A stretch of 37,989 bases of DNA from SAR86 cluster bacterium AG-313-N18 (GTDB lineage: Bacteria; Pseudomonadota; Gammaproteobacteria; Magnimaribacterales; D2472): positions 1 to 37,989 of the forward strand of contig QBVY01000009.1 in the NCBI GenBank assembly GCA_003283765.1, given 5' to 3'. Within the stretch, counting starts at the first letter, position 1. Each line of letters starts with the position of its first letter. This document shows positions 5,441-30,290 of this stretch, in pieces. Below the pieces are notes generated by a model, which was not told where the DNA came from, searched no databases, and saw nothing but the letters and a program-made list of their open reading frames with translations. The position numbers and the translations under genes are program-made.

Positions 5441-5597
5441 TTAGAGAAAAAATTCTATCCTCTAACATCCTGGGTATATCATCCTCTATTGGATAGCCAA
5501 TGTTGCATTGATCACACTCAAGATGATCTTCCATATCAATCAACTTTGATTTGCATCTAATGCATCCCATAATATTTAAAATATCCTTATCTATCAT
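5433..5597 (-). CDS. ycaR: Trm112/YcaR-like small zinc-ribbon protein
   Basis: A 54-residue protein found by reading the gap between lpxK and kdsB. It has two cysteine pairs, GCIRCK (Cys12, Cys15) and CDQC (Cys28, Cys31), followed by YPIEDDIPRML, which fits the YcaR/Trm112-like family pattern of two zinc-knuckle pairs followed by YPI-DGIPxML. The ATG at 5597 lies inside the end of the msbA-lpxK gene (11-base overlap) and its TGA lies inside kdsB (8-base overlap). E. coli and Pseudomonas also carry this small gene between lpxK and kdsB, which supports the call. YcaR's exact role is not settled; Trm112 relatives are partner subunits of methyltransferases. Confidence 0.88.
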   Translation of the reverse strand: MIDKDILNIMGCIRCKSKLIDMEDHLECDQCNIGYPIEDDIPRMLEDRIFSLND

Positions 5598-8343
5598 TCA
5601 ACCTCTCCTCTAGCCTATCAATAAATTGGGATTCAATTTTAGACTCAATGCTAAGATACCAAATCTTTGAGTTATTAAAATGTTTGCATTTAGCAGCATC
5701 TTTCTCAGTCATTAAGATTGGAAGATGATCAAGGTAATATAAATCCCTTTTATTATATTTATGATGATCAGGAAATGGATTTTTATCAAACTCAAAACCT
5801 AACCTAAGTAATAAATCAAAAAATCTATTAGGATTACCGACTCCGGCAATTGCATGGACTTGATTATGCATAGGCCACTTATCTACTGAATACTCTTTAC
5901 CAGAATTTAGGTGAATGAACTTTGCAGGACTTAGGGTCATTAAAATTTCATCCCCTTCAGTTGGACCACCATTGTTAACAATAAAATCAACTTCTGTAAG
6001 TCTAGACTTAGGCTCCCTAAGTGGGCCTGCAGGAAATGCTAAGCCATTTCCCAGTCTTCTAGCACCATCTATTACAGCAATTTCAATATCTCTACCCATT
6101 GCATAATGCTGAAGTCCATCATCAGAAATAATTACATCCACATCATGTTTTTCTTGAAGTTTTTTTGCGGCCCTAGATCTATTTTTATCAATAAAAAATG
6201 GCACATCTAATTTAGCTAAAATTTGTGCTTCATCACCAGTTTGTTTGTAGGTAGCATCAGGAGTGACTTCAAGTGTTCCAGAATATTTACCACCATATCC
6301 CCTGCTTACTAATCCGGGTTTAAAACCACGTTTAGCTAACTCACTGGCAATAAATTTGACCAAAGGTGTTTTGCCGGTTCCACCCATTGAAATATTACCT
6401 ACAACAATAATAGGTTTTGGGGAGCTCCATACTTTTTTGGGATTTTTAACATAAGAGTTCCTTCTCGCTTTTGCTAAAGAGGAAAATAAAAAAGTAAAGG
6501 GAGCTAAAATATATAGCCACCAGCTTTTGTTGTACCAAGCATCAATTAGGTATCCTTGCTGAGTTGGCTCCTCTGTAAATGTTGGAAGATATTCCTGACC
6601 AACAGATTTTCTTGAAGGCTTTTTCGGATCACCAGAATCATTAAATTTATTTTGATATAAGCCTTTATAGATACCATCTTGATTTAATAACTCATCATGA
6701 GTTCCTGACTCTGCGACCGAGCCGTTATCTAAAACTAAAATTTTATCTGCATTTTCAATGGTAGAAAGCCTATGGGCAATGACGATAGTAGTTCTATTAT
6801 TGATTAATTGCTCTATGGCCTCTTGCACAATTAATTCAGATTCATTATCTAGCGCTGATGTGGCTTCATCCAAGATAATAATTGGTGAATCTTTATAAAA
6901 AGCTCTAGCTATTGCTATTCTTTGGCGTTGGCCGCCGGATAATAAGACGCCGTCATCACCTATTTCAGATTTAAAGCCCTCTGGAAGTCTTGAAATAAAT
7001 TCATTGCAGCCTGATATTTTTGCTGCTTCCTTTAATTTTATTTCATCAATATCGTTCTCGCCATATGCAATATTTTTTTCAATAGTGTCATTAAACAAAG
7101 TTGGTGATTGATTGACTATTGAAATAGATTCTCGTAGATGAGAGAGCCGATAATCTAATATGCTGACATCATCTATAGAGATTTTCCCTGAGTAATCAGA
7201 ATAAAATCTTGAAATTAAATTGGCGATTGTGGATTTGCCTGATCCAGATTTTCCAACAATAGCAACTGTCTCATTTTGAACGATTTCAAAATTTAAATTA
7301 TCTAAAACCGATTCTTTAGAGTTATATCCAAAAGAAACATCTGAAAATTTAATGTTTCCTATAATCTCTGAGTCTAGCTCACCAGCGTCCTCTTCTTCTT
7401 TTGCATCCAATTGATCAAAGATTTCTACAGCTGCTGCTAAGCCTTTTTGAATTACAGCATTTATATTTGAAAGTTGTCTAATGGGCTTTGCCATTAATCC
7501 CGCAGCAGTTATGAAAGCAACAAAATCCTCCGCACTAAGTTCTATGCCGAGTTGAGAGCCCAATGCAAAATAAGCAACGATAGATAATGAAACCGAAACA
7601 AGTAGCTGAATAATTGGCGTTGCTAAATTACTTGTGGCTTCAAGTTTTAAATTTTGATTTTTATTAGAAGCATTGGCAGCGAAGAATCTATCCTTTTCAT
7701 ATTTTTCAGCATTAAACGACTTTATTTCTAGGTTTCCATCAACAGCCTCAGATGCAAGATGGGTTACGTCTCCCATAGCTGTTTGAATTGTTTTTGCTAA
7801 CTTTCTTAATCGACGACCAGCAACATATACTATTAACGCAATAAAGGGAGTGGTGATCAATAAAAGGAGTGTTAACTTCCAGTTTAATGTAAGCATGTAG
7901 GCTAGCAAGCCCAAAAGAAGGAACCCTTCCCTAACAAAAGTCTTGATAGCATTTGAGGCAGCACCTGAAACTTGCGTAGTAGTAAAAGTAATTCTATTAA
8001 TCAGTTGGCCGGACTGATTTTGATCAAAGAAATTCTTTGGAAGGTTGATGAGTTTTGAGAACAGCTCAGACCTAAGGTCATGCACAATACCGAACCCAAC
8101 TCTGGACATAAAATAGTTACCAATAAAAAAGCCGGCTCCTCTTCCCATTGCAATAAAAATTAATGCTAAAACAAGATATATGCTGAAATCTTCTTGGTCA
8201 GAATTTATGTATTCAATAATTCTTCTAATCCATTCAACAGCAGCAATATCAGCGGATGCAAAAAGAATAAAACCAAAGATACTTAAGATAAAAGAAAATT
8301 TAAATCTAAAGGTATACGAAAATAATCTTTTTAAGGGATTCAT
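5587..8343 (-). CDS. msbA-lpxK: MsbA-LpxK fusion: lipid A flippase joined to tetraacyldisaccharide 4'-kinase
   Basis: One uninterrupted 918-residue frame joins two enzymes that are normally separate. Residues 1-570 are MsbA, the ABC flippase moving lipid A-core across the inner membrane: helices to about 300, Walker A GKSGSGKST (364-372), LSGGQ (468-472), Walker B IIILDE (488-493) and switch His524. Residues 598-918 are LpxK, which adds the 4'-phosphate to lipid A disaccharide: a membrane-associated start, P-loop GNISMGGTGKT (649-659), and DDGLQH (741-746). The linker (about 569-597) is hydrophilic and rich in Pro, Lys and Glu. No start codon lies at the LpxK boundary, where the frame reads GYLIDAW with CTA for Leu. 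Both halves look intact. Its ATG overlaps exbD by four bases, and the next gene overlaps its end. Confidence 0.95.
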   Translation of the reverse strand: MNPLKRLFSYTFRFKFSFILSIFGFILFASADIAAVEWIRRIIEYINSDQEDFSIYLVLALIFIAMGRGAGFFIGNYFMSRVGFGIVHDLRSELFSKLINLPKNFFDQNQSGQLINRITFTTTQVSGAASNAIKTFVREGFLLLGLLAYMLTLNWKLTLLLLITTPFIALIVYVAGRRLRKLAKTIQTAMGDVTHLASEAVDGNLEIKSFNAEKYEKDRFFAANASNKNQNLKLEATSNLATPIIQLLVSVSLSIVAYFALGSQLGIELSAEDFVAFITAAGLMAKPIRQLSNINAVIQKGLAAAVEIFDQLDAKEEEDAGELDSEIIGNIKFSDVSFGYNSKESVLDNLNFEIVQNETVAIVGKSGSGKSTIANLISRFYSDYSGKISIDDVSILDYRLSHLRESISIVNQSPTLFNDTIEKNIAYGENDIDEIKLKEAAKISGCNEFISRLPEGFKSEIGDDGVLLSGGQRQRIAIARAFYKDSPIIILDEATSALDNESELIVQEAIEQLINNRTTIVIAHRLSTIENADKILVLDNGSVAESGTHDELLNQDGIYKGLYQNKFNDSGDPKKPSRKSVGQEYLPTFTEEPTQQGYLIDAWYNKSWWLYILAPFTFLFSSLAKARRNSYVKNPKKVWSSPKPIIVVGNISMGGTGKTPLVKFIASELAKRGFKPGLVSRGYGGKYSGTLEVTPDATYKQTGDEAQILAKLDVPFFIDKNRSRAAKKLQEKHDVDVIISDDGLQHYAMGRDIEIAVIDGARRLGNGLAFPAGPLREPKSRLTEVDFIVNNGGPTEGDEILMTLSPAKFIHLNSGKEYSVDKWPMHNQVHAIAGVGNPNRFFDLLLRLGFEFDKNPFPDHHKYNKRDLYYLDHLPILMTEKDAAKCKHFNNSKIWYLSIESKIESQFIDRLEERLNDR

Positions 8344-25788: not shown

Positions 25789-25878
25789 TGGCGGAGAGAC
25801 AGGGATTCGAACCCTGGAAACCCGCGAAGGTTTGCTGGTTTTCAAGACCAGTGCATTCAACCGCTCTGCCATCTCTCC
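25789..25878 (-). tRNA. tRNA-Ser (anticodon UGA)
   Basis: A complete 90-nt serine tRNA read on the minus strand. The acceptor stem is GGAGAGA paired with TCTCTCC, followed by discriminator G and an encoded CCA. The anticodon loop CTTGAAA within arms CTGGT/ACCAG gives UGA, and there is a long variable arm with AACCTTCGCGGGTTT, as expected for serine. The T arm contains GGTTCGAATCC. The gene sits between the convergent serine-hydrolase gene and the divergent riboswitch region; its 3' end is only three bases from the serine-hydrolase stop, so no separate terminator is seen. Confidence 0.98.
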
Positions 25879-25944
25879 GTTCCTTAAGGTAAGGCATTTT
25901 AAAGACTTTTAGAAATAAGTAAACGATACTGGATTAGCTCTAGA

Positions 25945-25973
25945 TTGACATAAATGATTGATATTTGTTTAAT
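25945..25973 (+). promoter_or_regulatory. Probable sigma-70 promoter before the glutamine riboswitch
   Basis: TTGACA (25945-25950) is a perfect -35 hexamer and TTTAAT (25968-25973) a fair -10 hexamer, separated by 17 bases. Transcription would begin near 25980, exactly at the 5' side of the riboswitch stem P1. The position match with the RNA start makes this the most convincing promoter in the window. It is read from sequence only. Confidence 0.7.
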
Positions 25974-25980
25974 AACAATA

Positions 25981-26031
25981 TCGTTCATCCTATTCTTGGG
26001 ACGGAAGTAAGTAATAATACTGAAGGAACGC
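25981..26031 (+). promoter_or_regulatory. Glutamine riboswitch (glnA RNA / glutamine-I type)
   Basis: The RNA matches the glnA-type glutamine aptamer as I recall its consensus: CGTTCATCC, then GGGACGGAAGTA, then TGAAGGAACGC. Stem P1 pairs CGTTC (25982-25986) with GAACG (26026-26030). P2 pairs TCCT (25988-25991) with GGGA (25998-26001), with one G-U pair and a six-base loop. The bulged E-loop segment CGGAAGTA follows (26002-26009). P3 pairs AGT (26010-26012) with ACT (26019-26021); its bases differ from the common GG/CC, as expected for a stem kept by covariation. Glutamine binding would report nitrogen sufficiency. The element sits between a good promoter and a small ORF. It is best known from cyanobacteria and marine metagenomes, so its presence here is unusual. 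Confidence 0.88.
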
Positions 26032-26057
26032 ATCTTATTGCCAACCGGCAGGAGATG
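26031..26057 (+). promoter_or_regulatory. Hairpin covering the Shine-Dalgarno sequence (likely riboswitch expression platform)
   Basis: Immediately after the 3' strand of riboswitch stem P1, CATCT (26031-26035) can pair with AGATG (26053-26057), and TGCC (26039-26042) with GGCA (26047-26050), around an AACC loop. The ribosome binding site AGGAG (26050-26054), seven bases before the ATG at 26062, lies in the 3' side of this hairpin. Translational control by hiding the ribosome binding site is therefore likely. Whether glutamine opens or closes it cannot be decided from sequence. Confidence 0.6.
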
Positions 26058-26061
26058 AGAA

Positions 26062-26277
26062 ATGACTAAATGGGAATATAAAATAGTTGATCACAGCAAT
26101 TCAACTGCAATGGGATACTCTAACGAGGAAACAGAAGCATTTAAAATTGAATACAAAGATGCCATCCATTGGAAATATGAAATGTCTATGATTGAATTAA
26201 ACAAACTTGGTCAGGAAGGCTGGGAATTAGTCACTCAAGATGGGGCGAGTCAAATTTACTTAAGACGCCCAATATAA
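26062..26277 (+). CDS. Small DUF4177-like protein under riboswitch control
   Basis: A 71-residue soluble protein. It starts TKWEYKIVD and ends with ELNKLGQEGWELVTQ followed by YLRRP, the layout of DUF4177 proteins (a small alpha/beta domain of unknown function, K-W-E-Y-K-V at the start and L-G-x-E-G-W-E-L-V near the end). A middle insertion of about 25 residues, rich in Asn, Glu and Lys, separates the two parts. It is the first gene after the glutamine riboswitch and starts with a strong AGGAG ribosome binding site held in a hairpin. Marine glutamine riboswitches are often followed by short ORFs, and in Synechocystis a glutamine riboswitch controls a small glutamine synthetase inhibitor. A similar regulatory role here is speculation. 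The next gene starts four bases after its stop. Confidence 0.75.
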   Translation: MTKWEYKIVDHSNSTAMGYSNEETEAFKIEYKDAIHWKYEMSMIELNKLGQEGWELVTQDGASQIYLRRPI

Positions 26278-26280
26278 AGA

Positions 26281-26877
26281 ATGACATTAGAGGAAATAAG
26301 GGTAATAACAATTGTTTATGTTAGTGCCCTTGCTCCTCTAATTATATATTTCTATAAAAAAGATAAAATCCCACTCTGGGTACCTTCAATATATCTAGGA
26401 TCTTTTCTTGCATGCTCACTGGGCTGGGAGCTTTGGTTCACATATGGTTGGCTAGATGGAGATCCAGTTAATCTAAGAAGATCAGAGTCTTTAAATCAAT
26501 GGATTCCTCTTCATATTAATTGGCTTTTAAACTCAATGGCTGATGCTGGAACGATCTCACTTGGCGGTTTATGGTTGATGTGGAAATACAGTGGAAAGAA
26601 TAATCAGGTATTTCATGCATGGAACTGGCCTGCATTCGGTATTTTATTTATATGGTGTATAGCGCAGAATATTTTTGTAGAGCTTTTTTTGTATCATGAT
26701 CAATTATCTATAGGCAAGGAACTCTCTTGGGCTCCTTTCGCTCCAACCGGTCAATTCTTTAACCCGCTACTATTTGAATTTAATGAAAGAAGTGTGATGC
26801 TTCAAACACAATTACCTTGGTTAATTATGGCTCCTATCTTGTATAAAGCAGCAATATATATAGCAAGAAAATCCTAA
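26281..26877 (+). CDS. Unrecognised polytopic membrane protein
   Basis: A 198-residue membrane protein I cannot assign to a family. Hydrophobic segments lie at about 8-26, 33-53, 75-100, 113-135 and 173-192, giving roughly five helices. It is rich in Trp (for example WELWFTYGW and HAWNWPAF), has no signal peptide cleavage site, and contains a conserved-looking NSMADAGTISLGGLWLMWKY stretch. It starts four bases after the riboswitch-controlled small gene, so both are surely on one transcript. It is followed by a 91-base gap before the permease. A role in transport or membrane lipid chemistry is possible, but nothing in the sequence shows it. Confidence 0.7.
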   Translation: MTLEEIRVITIVYVSALAPLIIYFYKKDKIPLWVPSIYLGSFLACSLGWELWFTYGWLDGDPVNLRRSESLNQWIPLHINWLLNSMADAGTISLGGLWLMWKYSGKNNQVFHAWNWPAFGILFIWCIAQNIFVELFLYHDQLSIGKELSWAPFAPTGQFFNPLLFEFNERSVMLQTQLPWLIMAPILYKAAIYIARKS

Positions 26878-26968: not shown

Positions 26969-28255
26969 ATGAGTTCTGAACAACACAGAGTTATTGGTTT
27001 TTGGCGTGGATGGTCTATCGCTGTCGGATGTGCAATAGGCTCTGGTATTTTCATGATGCCAACATTATTGGCTCCATATGGATTGCTTGGATTGGGCGGC
27101 TGGTTAATAGCTGGTGGTGGTTCAATCCTAGTGGCTTTAACAATGGCCAAACTTGTAAAAAGGATTCCTAGAACTGGTGGACCTTATGTATATGTGAATG
27201 AAGGTCTTGGAAGATTTCCAGGATTTATAATTGCTTGGACATATTGGGTTGCATGTATTTCAGCAATTGCTGGAATATCAATTGCATTTGTTGGCTATTT
27301 AGGTTTCTTTGCTCCCACAATATCAAACTCACCAATTAATTCTTTGCTTGCATCACTAATTCTTGTTTGGATTATTATCATTCTAAATATAAGGAGTTTA
27401 GAAAATAGTTCTAAATTTCAACTAGTCTCCACCCTGTTAAAATTATTGCCACTTATATTTATTATTTATCTTGGCGCAGCAAACTTCAATATTGATAATT
27501 TACCAGAGCTCAATCCAACTGGTCTTCATCCCTTTTCATTGCTTGCAACTGTTACAACCCTTGTCATGTGGTCATTTATTGGTATTGAGACTGCAACGGT
27601 CCCAGCAGATAACGTAATCAATCCTCAGGAAACAATTCCAAGAATTTTAATCGCATCGGTTTTAACGATTCTCATTTTTTATATTTTGGTAAGTCTTGCA
27701 ATCGCAGCAATTGTGCCAACGAATGAATTGATTGACTCCCCTGCACCTTTTGCATTGGCGGCAACAAAGATTTTAGGTGTTACTGGTGGCACGATCATAA
27801 GCATAGGAGCTTTGATTTCTACGCTTGGTTCATTGAATGCAAATACACTTACTGCTGGTAATCTTAGTCTTGCAGCGGCAAGAGATGGCTTGCTTCCAAG
27901 AAAATTTATATTGTTAACTAAAACTGGTACTCCTATTTTTACATATCTGTTAACAGGGGTTTTTGTGAGTATTCTTCTGGTATTAAATTATACGAAGGGT
28001 ATCGTAAATGCATTTGTATTTATGGCAATGCTATCAACACTATCAACTTTAATTGCCTACGCTTTCTGCGCAATAGCTGAATTTAGATTTGCGCAAGCAG
28101 ATTCCAAAAATCAAGCAAGAAACAATGCACTTTTGTTATCATGTGGGACATTTTTATATGCATTTTTTGCGATCTGGGGGGCTGGGATTGAAATGATAGT
28201 TTATTCTTTTGTCCTAATCTTAATTGGGACACCAATTTACTTTCTTAAAAAATAA
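26969..28255 (+). CDS. APC superfamily amino-acid permease
   Basis: A 428-residue inner-membrane permease of the amino acid-polyamine-organocation (APC) superfamily. The first helix carries the substrate-binding AIGSGIFMMP (22-31), a hallmark of the family, followed by GGWLIAGGGSILVALTMAKLVKRIPRTGGPYVYVNEGLG. About twelve helices fit. The layout is like the AdiC, CadB and YjeH branch, which handles arginine, agmatine, lysine or hydrophobic amino acids. It starts 91 bases after the membrane protein and is followed four bases later by a guanidino-group hydrolase gene, so an arginine-like or guanidino substrate is a reasonable guess. No clear ribosome binding site is visible. Confidence 0.88.
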   Translation: MSSEQHRVIGFWRGWSIAVGCAIGSGIFMMPTLLAPYGLLGLGGWLIAGGGSILVALTMAKLVKRIPRTGGPYVYVNEGLGRFPGFIIAWTYWVACISAIAGISIAFVGYLGFFAPTISNSPINSLLASLILVWIIIILNIRSLENSSKFQLVSTLLKLLPLIFIIYLGAANFNIDNLPELNPTGLHPFSLLATVTTLVMWSFIGIETATVPADNVINPQETIPRILIASVLTILIFYILVSLAIAAIVPTNELIDSPAPFALAATKILGVTGGTIISIGALISTLGSLNANTLTAGNLSLAAARDGLLPRKFILLTKTGTPIFTYLLTGVFVSILLVLNYTKGIVNAFVFMAMLSTLSTLIAYAFCAIAEFRFAQADSKNQARNNALLLSCGTFLYAFFAIWGAGIEMIVYSFVLILIGTPIYFLKK

Positions 28256-28259
28256 TATC

Positions 28260-29126
28260 ATGAGTGTTTTTAATGAATATTCTCAAATAAAAGAAGTTGC
28301 AATAAGATCGCCTCTCTCTAGCTTTATTAATAATAAGAAACTTTCAAATGAGTGGAAGACCTTAAGGTTTCATGCGCAACCTGATTTAAAACAAGCAATA
28401 GTTGAATATGCTCATTTTAGAAGTTTGCTTGAAGATGATGGAATATCAATCATAGACTTGCCCTCTTCCCAGCTGCTTACAATTGATAGCATCTATACAA
28501 GAGATAGTATTTTAATTTCTAAAGAAGGGTTAATACTTTGTAATATGGGAAGATCTTCTAGAACGCCTGAGGCTTTAGAAAATTTTAATACTCTAAAATC
28601 TATGGGATACAAAGTAGCTGGTCAAATAAAAGCACCGGGAACACTTGAGGGTGGTGATTTTATATGGATTGACGATCATCATGCTGCAGTTGGACTTGGA
28701 CCAAGAACTAATGCAGAGGGGATCCATCAATTAAAAGAGATATTAGGCCCTTCAGTTGAATTGCACGTTGTGAATTTGCCGAAGCCTGATCATCCTGACG
28801 ATGTTCTGCATTTAATGTCAATAATTTCACCGCTAGATAAAGATCTAGCTCTTATATATAAACCATTCATGCCAAAATCATTTATTAACTGGCTTAGTGG
28901 ACTGGGTATAAAGTTTGTTGAAGTATCAGATGAAGAGTATCCATTAATGGGGTGTAATGTTTTGGCAACTTCACCAAGATCAATTATTATGCTTGAACAA
29001 TTACCAGGTGTTAAATCTGAACTTAAAAAAGCTGGATGTAAGATTAGATTATATAAGGGAATAGATATTAGTCGAAAAGGTGAAGGCGGGCCAACCTGCC
29101 TAACCAGGCCTTTGAAGAGAATATAG
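28260..29126 (+). CDS. Guanidino-group hydrolase, DDAH/arginine deiminase superfamily
   Basis: A 288-residue enzyme of the arginine-deiminase-like (guanidine-modifying) superfamily, which hydrolyses or transfers the guanidino group of arginine derivatives through a Cys thiolate. Visible active-site pieces are TRDSILI (80-86), LEGGDF with Glu130, HPDDVLHLMS with catalytic His184, and GGPTCLTRPL with nucleophile Cys280. The family includes dimethylarginine dimethylaminohydrolase (releases citrulline and dimethylamine), arginine deiminase and amidinotransferases; the exact reaction is not fixed by sequence. The frame runs up to 28224, but ATG 28260 (MSVFNEYSQIKEVAIRSP) matches the family start and lies four bases after the permease stop. 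The Rieske gene follows after three bases. Confidence 0.85.
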   Translation: MSVFNEYSQIKEVAIRSPLSSFINNKKLSNEWKTLRFHAQPDLKQAIVEYAHFRSLLEDDGISIIDLPSSQLLTIDSIYTRDSILISKEGLILCNMGRSSRTPEALENFNTLKSMGYKVAGQIKAPGTLEGGDFIWIDDHHAAVGLGPRTNAEGIHQLKEILGPSVELHVVNLPKPDHPDDVLHLMSIISPLDKDLALIYKPFMPKSFINWLSGLGIKFVEVSDEEYPLMGCNVLATSPRSIIMLEQLPGVKSELKKAGCKIRLYKGIDISRKGEGGPTCLTRPLKRI

Positions 29127-29129
29127 TAT

Positions 29130-30290
29130 ATGAAAGAGACCTTTAAAAGTTTACCAGGCTGGACATATACAAGCGATGCATTTTTTGAGCTTGAAAAAAC
29201 AGAATTAATTCTTAAAAATTGGCAATTAGTTTGCCATCTTTCAAATGTACCAGAAAAAGGAAATTTTTTTACATTTGAAATTTTTAATAAAAGAGTCTTT
29301 GTCATTAGAGGCGATGACGGAAATGTTGAGGCATTTCATAACTTTTGTTCACATCGGGGCACTAAGCTACTCGATGAAATTTCTGGAACTTGCAAAGATA
29401 AAATAACCTGCCCTTATCATGCTTGGGGATATGACTTTAAGGGAAATCTGATTAAAGTTCCTTATGAAGATCAATTTAAAGATCTAAAGAAAAACGATCA
29501 TGGTCTTCAAAAGGTTGAATTGGAAATCTTTCAGGGATTTATTTTTATCAAACTGTTAGAGTCAAATGTACCAAGCGTAACGGACCAATTTGCGCCATAT
29601 ATAAGTGAAATAGAACAATATAGACTTGAGGAGATGAAGCCTCTGGGTCGAGTCACGATGAGACCTAGAAAGGTCAACTGGAAGCAAATCGCTGATAACT
29701 ATGTAGATACATTGCATATACCTGTTGCTCACCCAGGCTTATCAAACATGGTTGGTAAAAGTTATGGTGTTGAGGTTTCATCAAATAATGGATACATACA
29801 TAAGATGTGGGGTGATGGAGCTAACATTCGCAAAGATAACCTGTCTAACATGCTATATGACAAATACTTACCACACATGGACCACCTTCCAGATGATAAA
29901 CAGAGATACTGGCTTTACTACAGACTATGGCCAAATCTTGCTTTCGATATATATCCAGAGCAAATGGATTTTATGCAATTCATTCCAATCGATGCAAACA
30001 CAACAATGATAAGAGAGATAGCATATGCCCTGCCTGACGACCGTCGAGAAACTAAAGCAGCTCAATATCTAAATTGGAGAATCAATAGACAGGTTAATAA
30101 TGAAGATACCTATTTGATAAATTTAGTTCAAGAAGGAATGGGTACCAATAATTTTAAATCTGGTCCTCTTGCAGCATCTGAAGTTAGTTTGATTGATAGT
30201 GCTAACAAAATAAGAGAAGCGTTACCCATTTCCACACAAGAGATAAAACCTGAAGACTCTGAAATATTACAAATTAATTCAGAGGCTTAG
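29130..30290 (+). CDS. Rieske non-haem iron oxygenase, alpha subunit (quaternary amine type)
   Basis: A 386-residue Rieske oxygenase. The Rieske [2Fe-2S] motif is Cys73-Ser-His75 and Cys94-Pro-Tyr-His97. The mononuclear iron site has His196 and His201 in NYVDTLHIPVAHPG, with Asp326 in NNEDT as probable third ligand. The alpha-subunit layout, with the ending GPLAASEVSLIDSANKIREALP, is most like enzymes that demethylate or cleave glycine betaine, stachydrine or carnitine, though aromatic ring hydroxylases share many features. No reductase or ferredoxin gene follows, so electrons must come from elsewhere. It starts three bases after the DDAH-like gene and ends the five-gene plus-strand group; a hairpin terminator comes next. 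Confidence 0.88.
   Translation: MKETFKSLPGWTYTSDAFFELEKTELILKNWQLVCHLSNVPEKGNFFTFEIFNKRVFVIRGDDGNVEAFHNFCSHRGTKLLDEISGTCKDKITCPYHAWGYDFKGNLIKVPYEDQFKDLKKNDHGLQKVELEIFQGFIFIKLLESNVPSVTDQFAPYISEIEQYRLEEMKPLGRVTMRPRKVNWKQIADNYVDTLHIPVAHPGLSNMVGKSYGVEVSSNNGYIHKMWGDGANIRKDNLSNMLYDKYLPHMDHLPDDKQRYWLYYRLWPNLAFDIYPEQMDFMQFIPIDANTTMIREIAYALPDDRRETKAAQYLNWRINRQVNNEDTYLINLVQEGMGTNNFKSGPLAASEVSLIDSANKIREALPISTQEIKPEDSEILQINSEA

Follow-up and report, generated by a model that had tools for sequence, protein, structure and literature searches.

A glutamine-I riboswitch aptamer lies in the 5' leader of a small gene in a 37,989-nt stretch of the genome of the SAR86 cluster bacterium AG-313-N18 (this whole stretch is called the window hereafter). 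The leader comprises promoter boxes, the aptamer, a hairpin holding the Shine-Dalgarno (SD) sequence and the start codon. From the computed aptamer, hairpin, gene order and distribution we infer that this is, on balance, probably a type-1 glutamine riboswitch that would bind glutamine and turn on translation of a 71-aa DUF4177-like protein, with a putative role in nitrogen plenty, as part of a glutamine regulon spanning the order.

To characterize the element we searched both strands of the window against the complete set of 4227 Rfam families. The gathering score was reached twice, by a tRNA at 25792-25878 (-) and by RF01739 (glutamine-I riboswitch) at 25980-26034 (+), the latter over the full model (1-53) with 63.8 bits (gathering score 35, E 5.1e-12). 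By its sequence the window RNA is a member of the already known glutamine-I (type-1, glnA) class. The full-length match bears out the original prediction of a glutamine aptamer core with three stems, and the covariance-model search proposed there as a check came out well over the gathering score; at least 60 of 120 related genomes also exceeded it. The core words (25982-25990, 25998-26009 and 26022-26031) occurred in this order once on the + strand and nowhere on the - strand of the window. The ligand core is complete: the GG of J2/3, the AGUA/GAA element, which we take to be the E-loop, and the C after P1 are all present. The interval originally assigned, 25981-26061, holds for the aptamer as far as 26034; its remainder is the expression platform (Table 1). 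A 44-aa open reading frame (ORF) on the opposite strand (25899-26033) overlaps the site and was taken as a chance occurrence rather than a gene. The tRNA gene adjoins the cassette and, by eye, is also found upstream in several, not all, relatives of the genus; tRNA neighbourhoods are common sites of gene exchange.

Table 1. Features of the riboswitch leader and of the genes downstream (window positions).
Feature	Position	Strand	Basis or remark
-35 box TTGACA	25945..25950	+	sequence
-10 box TTTAAT	25968..25973	+	sequence; 17 nt spacer from -35 box
Glutamine-I aptamer	25980..26034	+	RF01739 match, pair counts
P1	25982-25986/26026-26030	+	aptamer stem
P2	25988-25992/25997-26001	+	aptamer stem
P3	26010-26013/26018-26021	+	aptamer stem
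C right after P1	26031	+	first base of SD hairpin; putative C60 equivalent by position
Hairpin with SD (expression platform)	26031..26057	+	CAUCUUAUUGCC-AACC-GGCAGGAGAUG, -11.1 kcal/mol
Shine-Dalgarno AGGAG	26050..26054	+	sequence; 7 nt 5' of ATG
71-aa DUF4177-like, sP36-related protein	26062..26277	+	ATG at 26062; PF13783 22.8 bits, NF053529 27.8 bits, both below cut-off
198-aa ORF	26281..26877	+	3 nt after DUF4177-like stop; hydrophobic by inspection
APC-family amino acid permease	26969..28255	+	PF13520 E 7e-45
Dimethylarginase / arginine deiminase-like hydrolase	28260..29126	+	PF02274 E 3e-19; NF045660 E 1e-22, below cut-off
Rieske ring-hydroxylating oxygenase	29130..30290	+	PF00848, PF00355

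The secondary structure was assessed on an alignment of 21 distinct leaders, out of 27 with the same layout in the window and its SAR86 relatives. P1 and P2 were paired in every aligned leader, and P3 was unpaired in one cell only. Over P1, P2, P3 and the hairpin together 98.7% of the cells were paired; sliding the partners by 1-3 columns reduced this to 33.5-56.6%. Two-sided changes occurred in one pair each of P2 and P3, and P1 was invariant and thus uninformative on covariation. The hairpin stem displayed almost no covariation, its outer pairs CAUCU/AGAUG being identical in 20 of the 21 leaders, which precede different small ORFs. Since near-invariant outer pairs are expected of an SD region, the SD hairpin rests on conservation and energy. 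The layout was kept in all 14 DUF4177-type leaders found in the window's genus. The good promoter of the original prediction stands in so far as both boxes are present and TTGACA is kept in 12 of these 14 leaders, but the TTGACA/TTTAAT pair is absent from the output of a generic promoter scan of the window, whose rule accepts a second hexamer only if its position 2 is A. Judged from the boxes, transcription is expected to start near 25980, the first base of the aptamer.

In the solved aptamer, bound glutamine leads to the insertion of G23, which pairs with C60 at the foot of P1; the available part of PMC11477058 describes the roles of G22, G23 and C60. By position C26031 would be the equivalent of C60. 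Both the glutamine-bound aptamer, for its linchpin pair, and the full hairpin, located directly 3' of P1, would then need this base and be in competition over it. We propose that, upon transcription from about 25980, the aptamer would be made first. If glutamine, i.e. nitrogen, is plentiful, the aptamer would close and claim C26031 for the pair with G23, such that the hairpin would be weakened and ribosomes could start. The outcome would be a translational ON switch, the small protein being made when nitrogen abounds.

The energetic effect of this competition was computed for all 21 leaders. Losing the C26031 pair costs 2.6 kcal/mol in 20 leaders and 2.0 kcal/mol in one. For the window the hairpin energy changes from -11.1 to -8.5 kcal/mol, and for the short hairpins of other leaders from between -3.3 and -5.1 kcal/mol to between -1.3 and -2.5 kcal/mol. 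In the computed free-state ensemble the AGGAG bases were unpaired with probabilities of 0.01, 0.47, 0.16, 0.01 (0.012) and 0.00 (0.001). Enforcing the aptamer alone left this accessibility unchanged. With the aptamer enforced and the C withheld, the values became 0.06, 0.48, 0.23, 0.12 (0.116) and 0.07 (0.068). Bases 2 and 3 thus barely respond (0.47 to 0.48 and 0.16 to 0.23), and the SD is never wholly buried or wholly released. When three short-hairpin leaders were analysed in the same manner, L064 opened clearly, L051 hardly opened and L097 adopted a different free fold. Given that the hairpin still amounts to -8.5 kcal/mol without the C, an ON switch acting at equilibrium would be modest or weak for the window. 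A full thermodynamic switch at 26031 finds weak support in the computed ensembles and was set aside.

The controlled gene had been described as DUF4177-like. This holds in kind, since PF13783 matched 19 of 19 members of the protein alignment, including the window protein, at E<=0.01 (best 2.6e-8); the window protein itself, at 22.8 bits, stays under the Pfam gathering score of 25. The sP36 family (NF053529) likewise matched 19 of 19 members at E<=0.01 (best 2.1e-7), the 27.8 bits of the window protein being under the NCBIfam cut-off of 50. DUF4177 was the sole Pfam family found for the window protein, which did not match DUF4278. Homologues occur in 21 of 120 genomes; 19 of them form the alignment, in which the others are 59-96% identical to the window protein. 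The riboswitch leads 14 of the 21 homologues. Upstream of the other seven no RF01739 match at E<=0.1 was found, with six of them judgeable and the seventh (L139) preceded by only 43 bases up to the contig end; by inspection, no nitrogen gene lies beside these seven. AlphaFold2, given the window protein and 13 close relatives, predicted one strand, two helices and two strands (pLDDT 69). A solved structure for the DUF4177-like family was sought and the candidate dropped: the best hit of a PDB sequence search was an unrelated polymerase (E 0.04), and Foldseek with the predicted structure retrieved nothing from the PDB at E<=0.001. As a working guess by analogy with its distant relative sP36, the 71-aa protein might damp ammonium uptake or assimilation.

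Neither Pfam nor NCBIfam assigned a family at E<=0.001 to the 198-aa ORF that follows. Among 13 relatives from the genus, 11 have an ORF of 198-201 aa at this place; one further locus is cut by a contig end and one lacks it. From the gene order, the APC permease is a possible distal member of the transcription unit. Elsewhere in the window (5587-8343, -) a 918-aa ORF joins, by inspection, an MsbA-like ABC transporter and an LpxK-like kinase.

We then consider the host and the distribution of the element. The cassette pattern (aptamer, P3 variant and SD hairpin), run on 84,980 named species genomes, matched 27 contigs, of which 26 bear the title SAR86 cluster bacterium (SAR86E among them) and one is titled 'Gamma proteobacterium SCGC AAA168-P09'. 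Names of the AG- and AAA- type denote single-cell genomes; many matched titles still begin with MAG. With SAR86 lying within Gammaproteobacteria, the 26 of 27 named matches agree with the SAR86-type host that had been suspected. The window's genome (1.2 Mb in 45 contigs, 73% complete) has a single RF01739 match. Among 120 relatives, the window's genome included, 67 matched RF01739 at E<=0.001 and at least 60 exceeded the cut-off, with 13 of 20 genera represented. The 60 of 120 is a lower bound, as the strict filters placed two of three long-form sites of 35-43 bits (see below) under the cut-off, and many of the 120 genomes are incomplete, such that single absences mean little. In a class-wide sample 4 of 369 genomes matched, three from the same order (the window's included) and one from outside it. 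The aptamer thus characterizes the SAR86 order, and the rest of the class sample rarely has it. Of the two possibilities originally envisaged, a broader use of this RNA and its lateral transfer, the broader use is shown by the 60 of 120 related genomes over the cut-off. A recent one-off transfer into the window's genome alone is incompatible with this spread, the 26 SAR86 records and the 14 cassettes in the genus. The match outside the order (G403, L181) belongs to a small gammaproteobacterial genome, in which two aptamers precede ORFs resembling gltD and gltB (small and large subunit of glutamate synthase).

To survey the genes under control we classified 82 aptamer clusters, found in 80 stretches around sites and in the window; sites outside this survey include G107:C49, G110:C4, G113:C1, G116:C2 and G119:C6. 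Gene classes were assigned from regex signatures, and Pfam was run on ten representatives that did not include TonB, GOGAT or every YRG protein. The gene following the aptamers encodes glutamine synthetase (GS) in 18 clusters, a Gcw_chp outer-membrane protein in 15, a DUF4177-like protein in 14 (all single aptamers, in 14 genomes of the window's genus), a YRG small protein in 7, another small basic protein in 11, a TonB receptor in 7, glutamate synthase (GOGAT) in 3 and a circularly permuted ATP-grasp protein in 2. Five clusters fell outside the regex classes; by eye L104, L108 and L065 precede GS, and L059 and L106 small basic proteins. After the Gcw_chp gene the listed loci have an Amt-sized ORF (388-426 aa), which Pfam identified as Amt in L066. 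Both GS types, Amt, Gcw_chp and CP_ATPgrasp were confirmed by Pfam on the representatives. The YRG protein of L033 is a DUF4278 protein (29.4 bits, cut-off 25.3), and that of L054 reached only 23.0 bits; three small basic proteins gave no convincing Pfam match. The usual nitrogen-gene targets of this RNA class are thus encountered in the SAR86 relatives as GS, GOGAT and Amt contexts, but the PII link also named in the original prediction was not seen.

Several arrangements stood out in this survey. Three aptamers in a row precede the Gcw_chp-Amt operon in L066, L068 and L077. In L048 and L055 the aptamer lies before the gene of the circularly permuted ATP-grasp protein, which has a partner about 295 aa long; a link of the aptamer to ATP-grasp proteins is not known from cyanobacteria. 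The GS/TonB leaders (L071, L083, L088, L052 and L053 among them) have a different hairpin of the GTTAAAC...GTTTAAC/GTTTAGC type (22 of 22 examined), and most of them possess a CCTGCAGA-like stretch 3' of it. This distinct platform may stand for the opposite sign of control.

Provided that the element is a glutamine switch, ON is in our view the fairly likely direction, judging from the folding model and the cyanobacterial small-protein switches. The same riboswitch could also work with reversed sign, i.e. glutamine would steady P1, P1 would stack on the SD hairpin and the gene would be repressed. P1 and the hairpin do adjoin and can coexist, and other members of the order have the aptamer in front of GS and Amt genes, for which repression by glutamine would make sense. 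These leaders, however, use the other platform in the GS/TonB cases, such that the sign need not be common to all. Moreover, most of the SD is already paired in the computed ligand-free ensemble; an OFF switch is disfavoured because there would be little open SD left to close. In cyanobacteria, the small-protein switches covered in the available part of the review PMC6316151 are turned on by glutamine, namely that of IF17 (DUF4278) in Synechocystis and a type-2 switch in Prochlorococcus. We therefore regard repression as a distinctly less probable, though serious, alternative. Control in either direction might also be nearly absent: glutamine would be bound, and the hairpin of -11 kcal/mol would always hold the gene low, or the RNA would act on its own stability. 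The small change of SD access in the window's computed ensembles is compatible with such behaviour. Core and hairpin are nevertheless near-constant across the genus, which suggests selection on both and renders this reading unlikely.

Two further explanations concern the ligand and the origin of the DNA. Other riboswitches have known variant-ligand classes, and the gene controlled in the window is no obvious nitrogen gene; a variant of the class might thus recognize e.g. glutamate or another amide. We consider this quite improbable: as judged by eye, the window RNA keeps the strongly conserved positions of the consensus, and relatives have the same core in front of GS, GOGAT and Amt genes. Contamination, i.e. 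a cyanobacterial or phage piece binned into a SAR86 genome, could be suspected from the fragmentation of the window's assembly into 45 contigs, from the many named records titled MAG and from the presence of the aptamer on viral contigs. Aptamer and DUF4177-like gene occur together in 14 genomes of the genus, however, 26 of the 27 named matches are SAR86 records, several of them on contigs of at least 100 kb, and the window by inspection carries ordinary cellular genes, such that contamination hardly deserves consideration.

We compared the riboswitch contexts with the presence of GlnD and PII. PII was detected in 93 of the 120 genomes, the GlnD uridylyltransferase domain in 71. A riboswitch stands before GS or Gcw_chp-Amt in 21 genomes; GlnD was found in 0 of these 21, compared with 71 of the 99 others, and PII in 1 of 21, compared with 92 of 99; clades are not independent, so that Fisher values on this contrast overstate the case, and part of the absences was read from genomes missing in match lists. 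The 21 genomes come from two genera, namely g7 (8 genomes), which belongs to the window's family, and g13 (13 genomes), which belongs to another, and therefore represent at most few events rather than 21 independent cases. Family f3 comprises all three glutamate synthase cases; here GlnD was not found in 16 genomes and PII was present in most. Where the riboswitch acts on small proteins, GlnD is mostly kept (25 of 32 genomes). The window's genome contains a GlnD domain (G000:C28:5224-5637), three PII genes and two Amt genes, with two PII-Amt pairs on C18, and a GS without riboswitch. A tentative picture, which we hold to be possible rather than probable, is that SAR86 nitrogen control would run via RNA. 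Some clades would have lost PII and GlnD, the protein sensor of glutamine, and placed GS and ammonium uptake directly under riboswitches; clades that keep them, such as the window's, would use the ON switch for small brakes on assimilation, here an sP36-like protein that would shut ammonium transporters at high glutamine.

The aptamer is also found on viral contigs. A scan of IMG/VR returned at least 120 matching stretches, 80 of which were read. The CATC...GATG layout, as detected by regex, was present in 33 of these 80 and not in 47. Among the 80, at least 7 stretches continue with YRG proteins and 21 with small basic proteins that have NPFYP, NPYYP or NPWY at the C-terminus, like those of the SAR86 loci L101 and L110. 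In 130 pattern stretches from viral contigs tblastn detected no DUF4177 relative. The same design of aptamer, hairpin and small protein would thus appear to serve other small proteins in SAR86 and on marine viral contigs, and a phage route, or mobile history of the cassette, is plausible.

A long form of the aptamer was represented by 15 distinct copies (L049:1519-1656, L080:1549-1680, L085:1527-1647, L176:499-630, L178:524-655, L309:2521-2630 and others). It carries a conserved insert in P3, in most copies GGAAGATAGGAAAACCT..AAGTA..GAACGAGACCGA, and occurs in 14 of 120 genomes of the SAR86 order (reversed-pattern control 0) and on 8 viral contigs. In a structure drawn from the same sequences 97.4% of the cells were paired, compared with 41.7-54.1% for slid controls. 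Two-sided changes are present in two helices of the insert and absent from the helix carrying these two, in which certain pairs are disrupted in individual copies. A YRG, DUF4278-like ORF follows all 15 distinct copies. When three long-form loci were scanned with Rfam at E<=1, RF01739 was the sole match there. The insert is a candidate for a new RNA domain nested within the aptamer and might be an aptamer in its own right.

The glutamine-I (glnA) riboswitch was reportedly described by Ames and Breaker in 2011 from cyanobacteria and marine metagenomes. The same range is given in the available part of Weinberg 2010 (PMC2864571), and a 2018 review, as far as its text was available, restricts the glutamine sensor RNA to cyanobacteria; the accessible text of PMC9004378 mentions glnA motifs in 'other marine bacteria'. 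Our literature search, in which subscription journals were mostly uncovered, returned no report of a glutamine riboswitch in SAR86 or with DUF4177. As far as the searches reach, the order-wide SAR86 regulon, its link to missing GlnD and PII and the DUF4177-like target are new. The SAR86 relatives constitute a named bacterial group with glutamine-riboswitch links to GS, GOGAT and Amt; because of these links, part of the unexplained environmental set of glutamine riboswitches may stem from SAR86. The arrangement suggests how a streamlined ocean heterotroph could sense nitrogen without GlnD and PII. In addition, it singles out one small-protein gene for which both switch and target can be assayed.

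With the RF01739 riboswitches described so far the window shares the aptamer sequence and the three stems, and its SAR86 relatives share tandem copies and nitrogen targets; tandem use of the aptamer is already known according to the available parts of PMC2864571 and PMC9481103. It differs from them in its gammaproteobacterial host order and in its DUF4177-like target. The gifB/IF17 switch of Synechocystis, as presented in the accessible part of PMC6316151, similarly places the aptamer before a small protein. There DUF4278 is the main cyanobacterial partner of the glutamine riboswitch, and DUF4278-like targets recur in the SAR86 relatives, whereas the window protein is DUF4177-like and not DUF4278. 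In Methanosarcina mazei the protein sP36 binds AmtB1 and GlnK1, its proposed role being the inhibition of ammonium transport upon nitrogen upshift (available text of PMC10714827). It resembles the window protein in its small size (61 and 71 aa, respectively) and in the weak family match shared by 19 of 19 alignment members, and the two PII-Amt pairs of the window's genome would offer possible partners. The window protein, however, attains 27.8 of the 50 bits required; GlnD, absent from most sP36 organisms (a usual rather than strict absence), is encoded in the window's genome, such that the association of sP36 with missing GlnD does not extend to it; and the available part of PMC10714827 describes no riboswitch before sP36. 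We take kinship of the window protein with sP36, as suggested by the family match, as a lead. The glutamine riboswitches of the phage Melnitz (PMC9004378, in the part available) belong to the same aptamer class and come from marine phages of streamlined bacteria. That study found none in the OM43 host, whereas here the bacterial SAR86 genomes themselves carry the aptamer.
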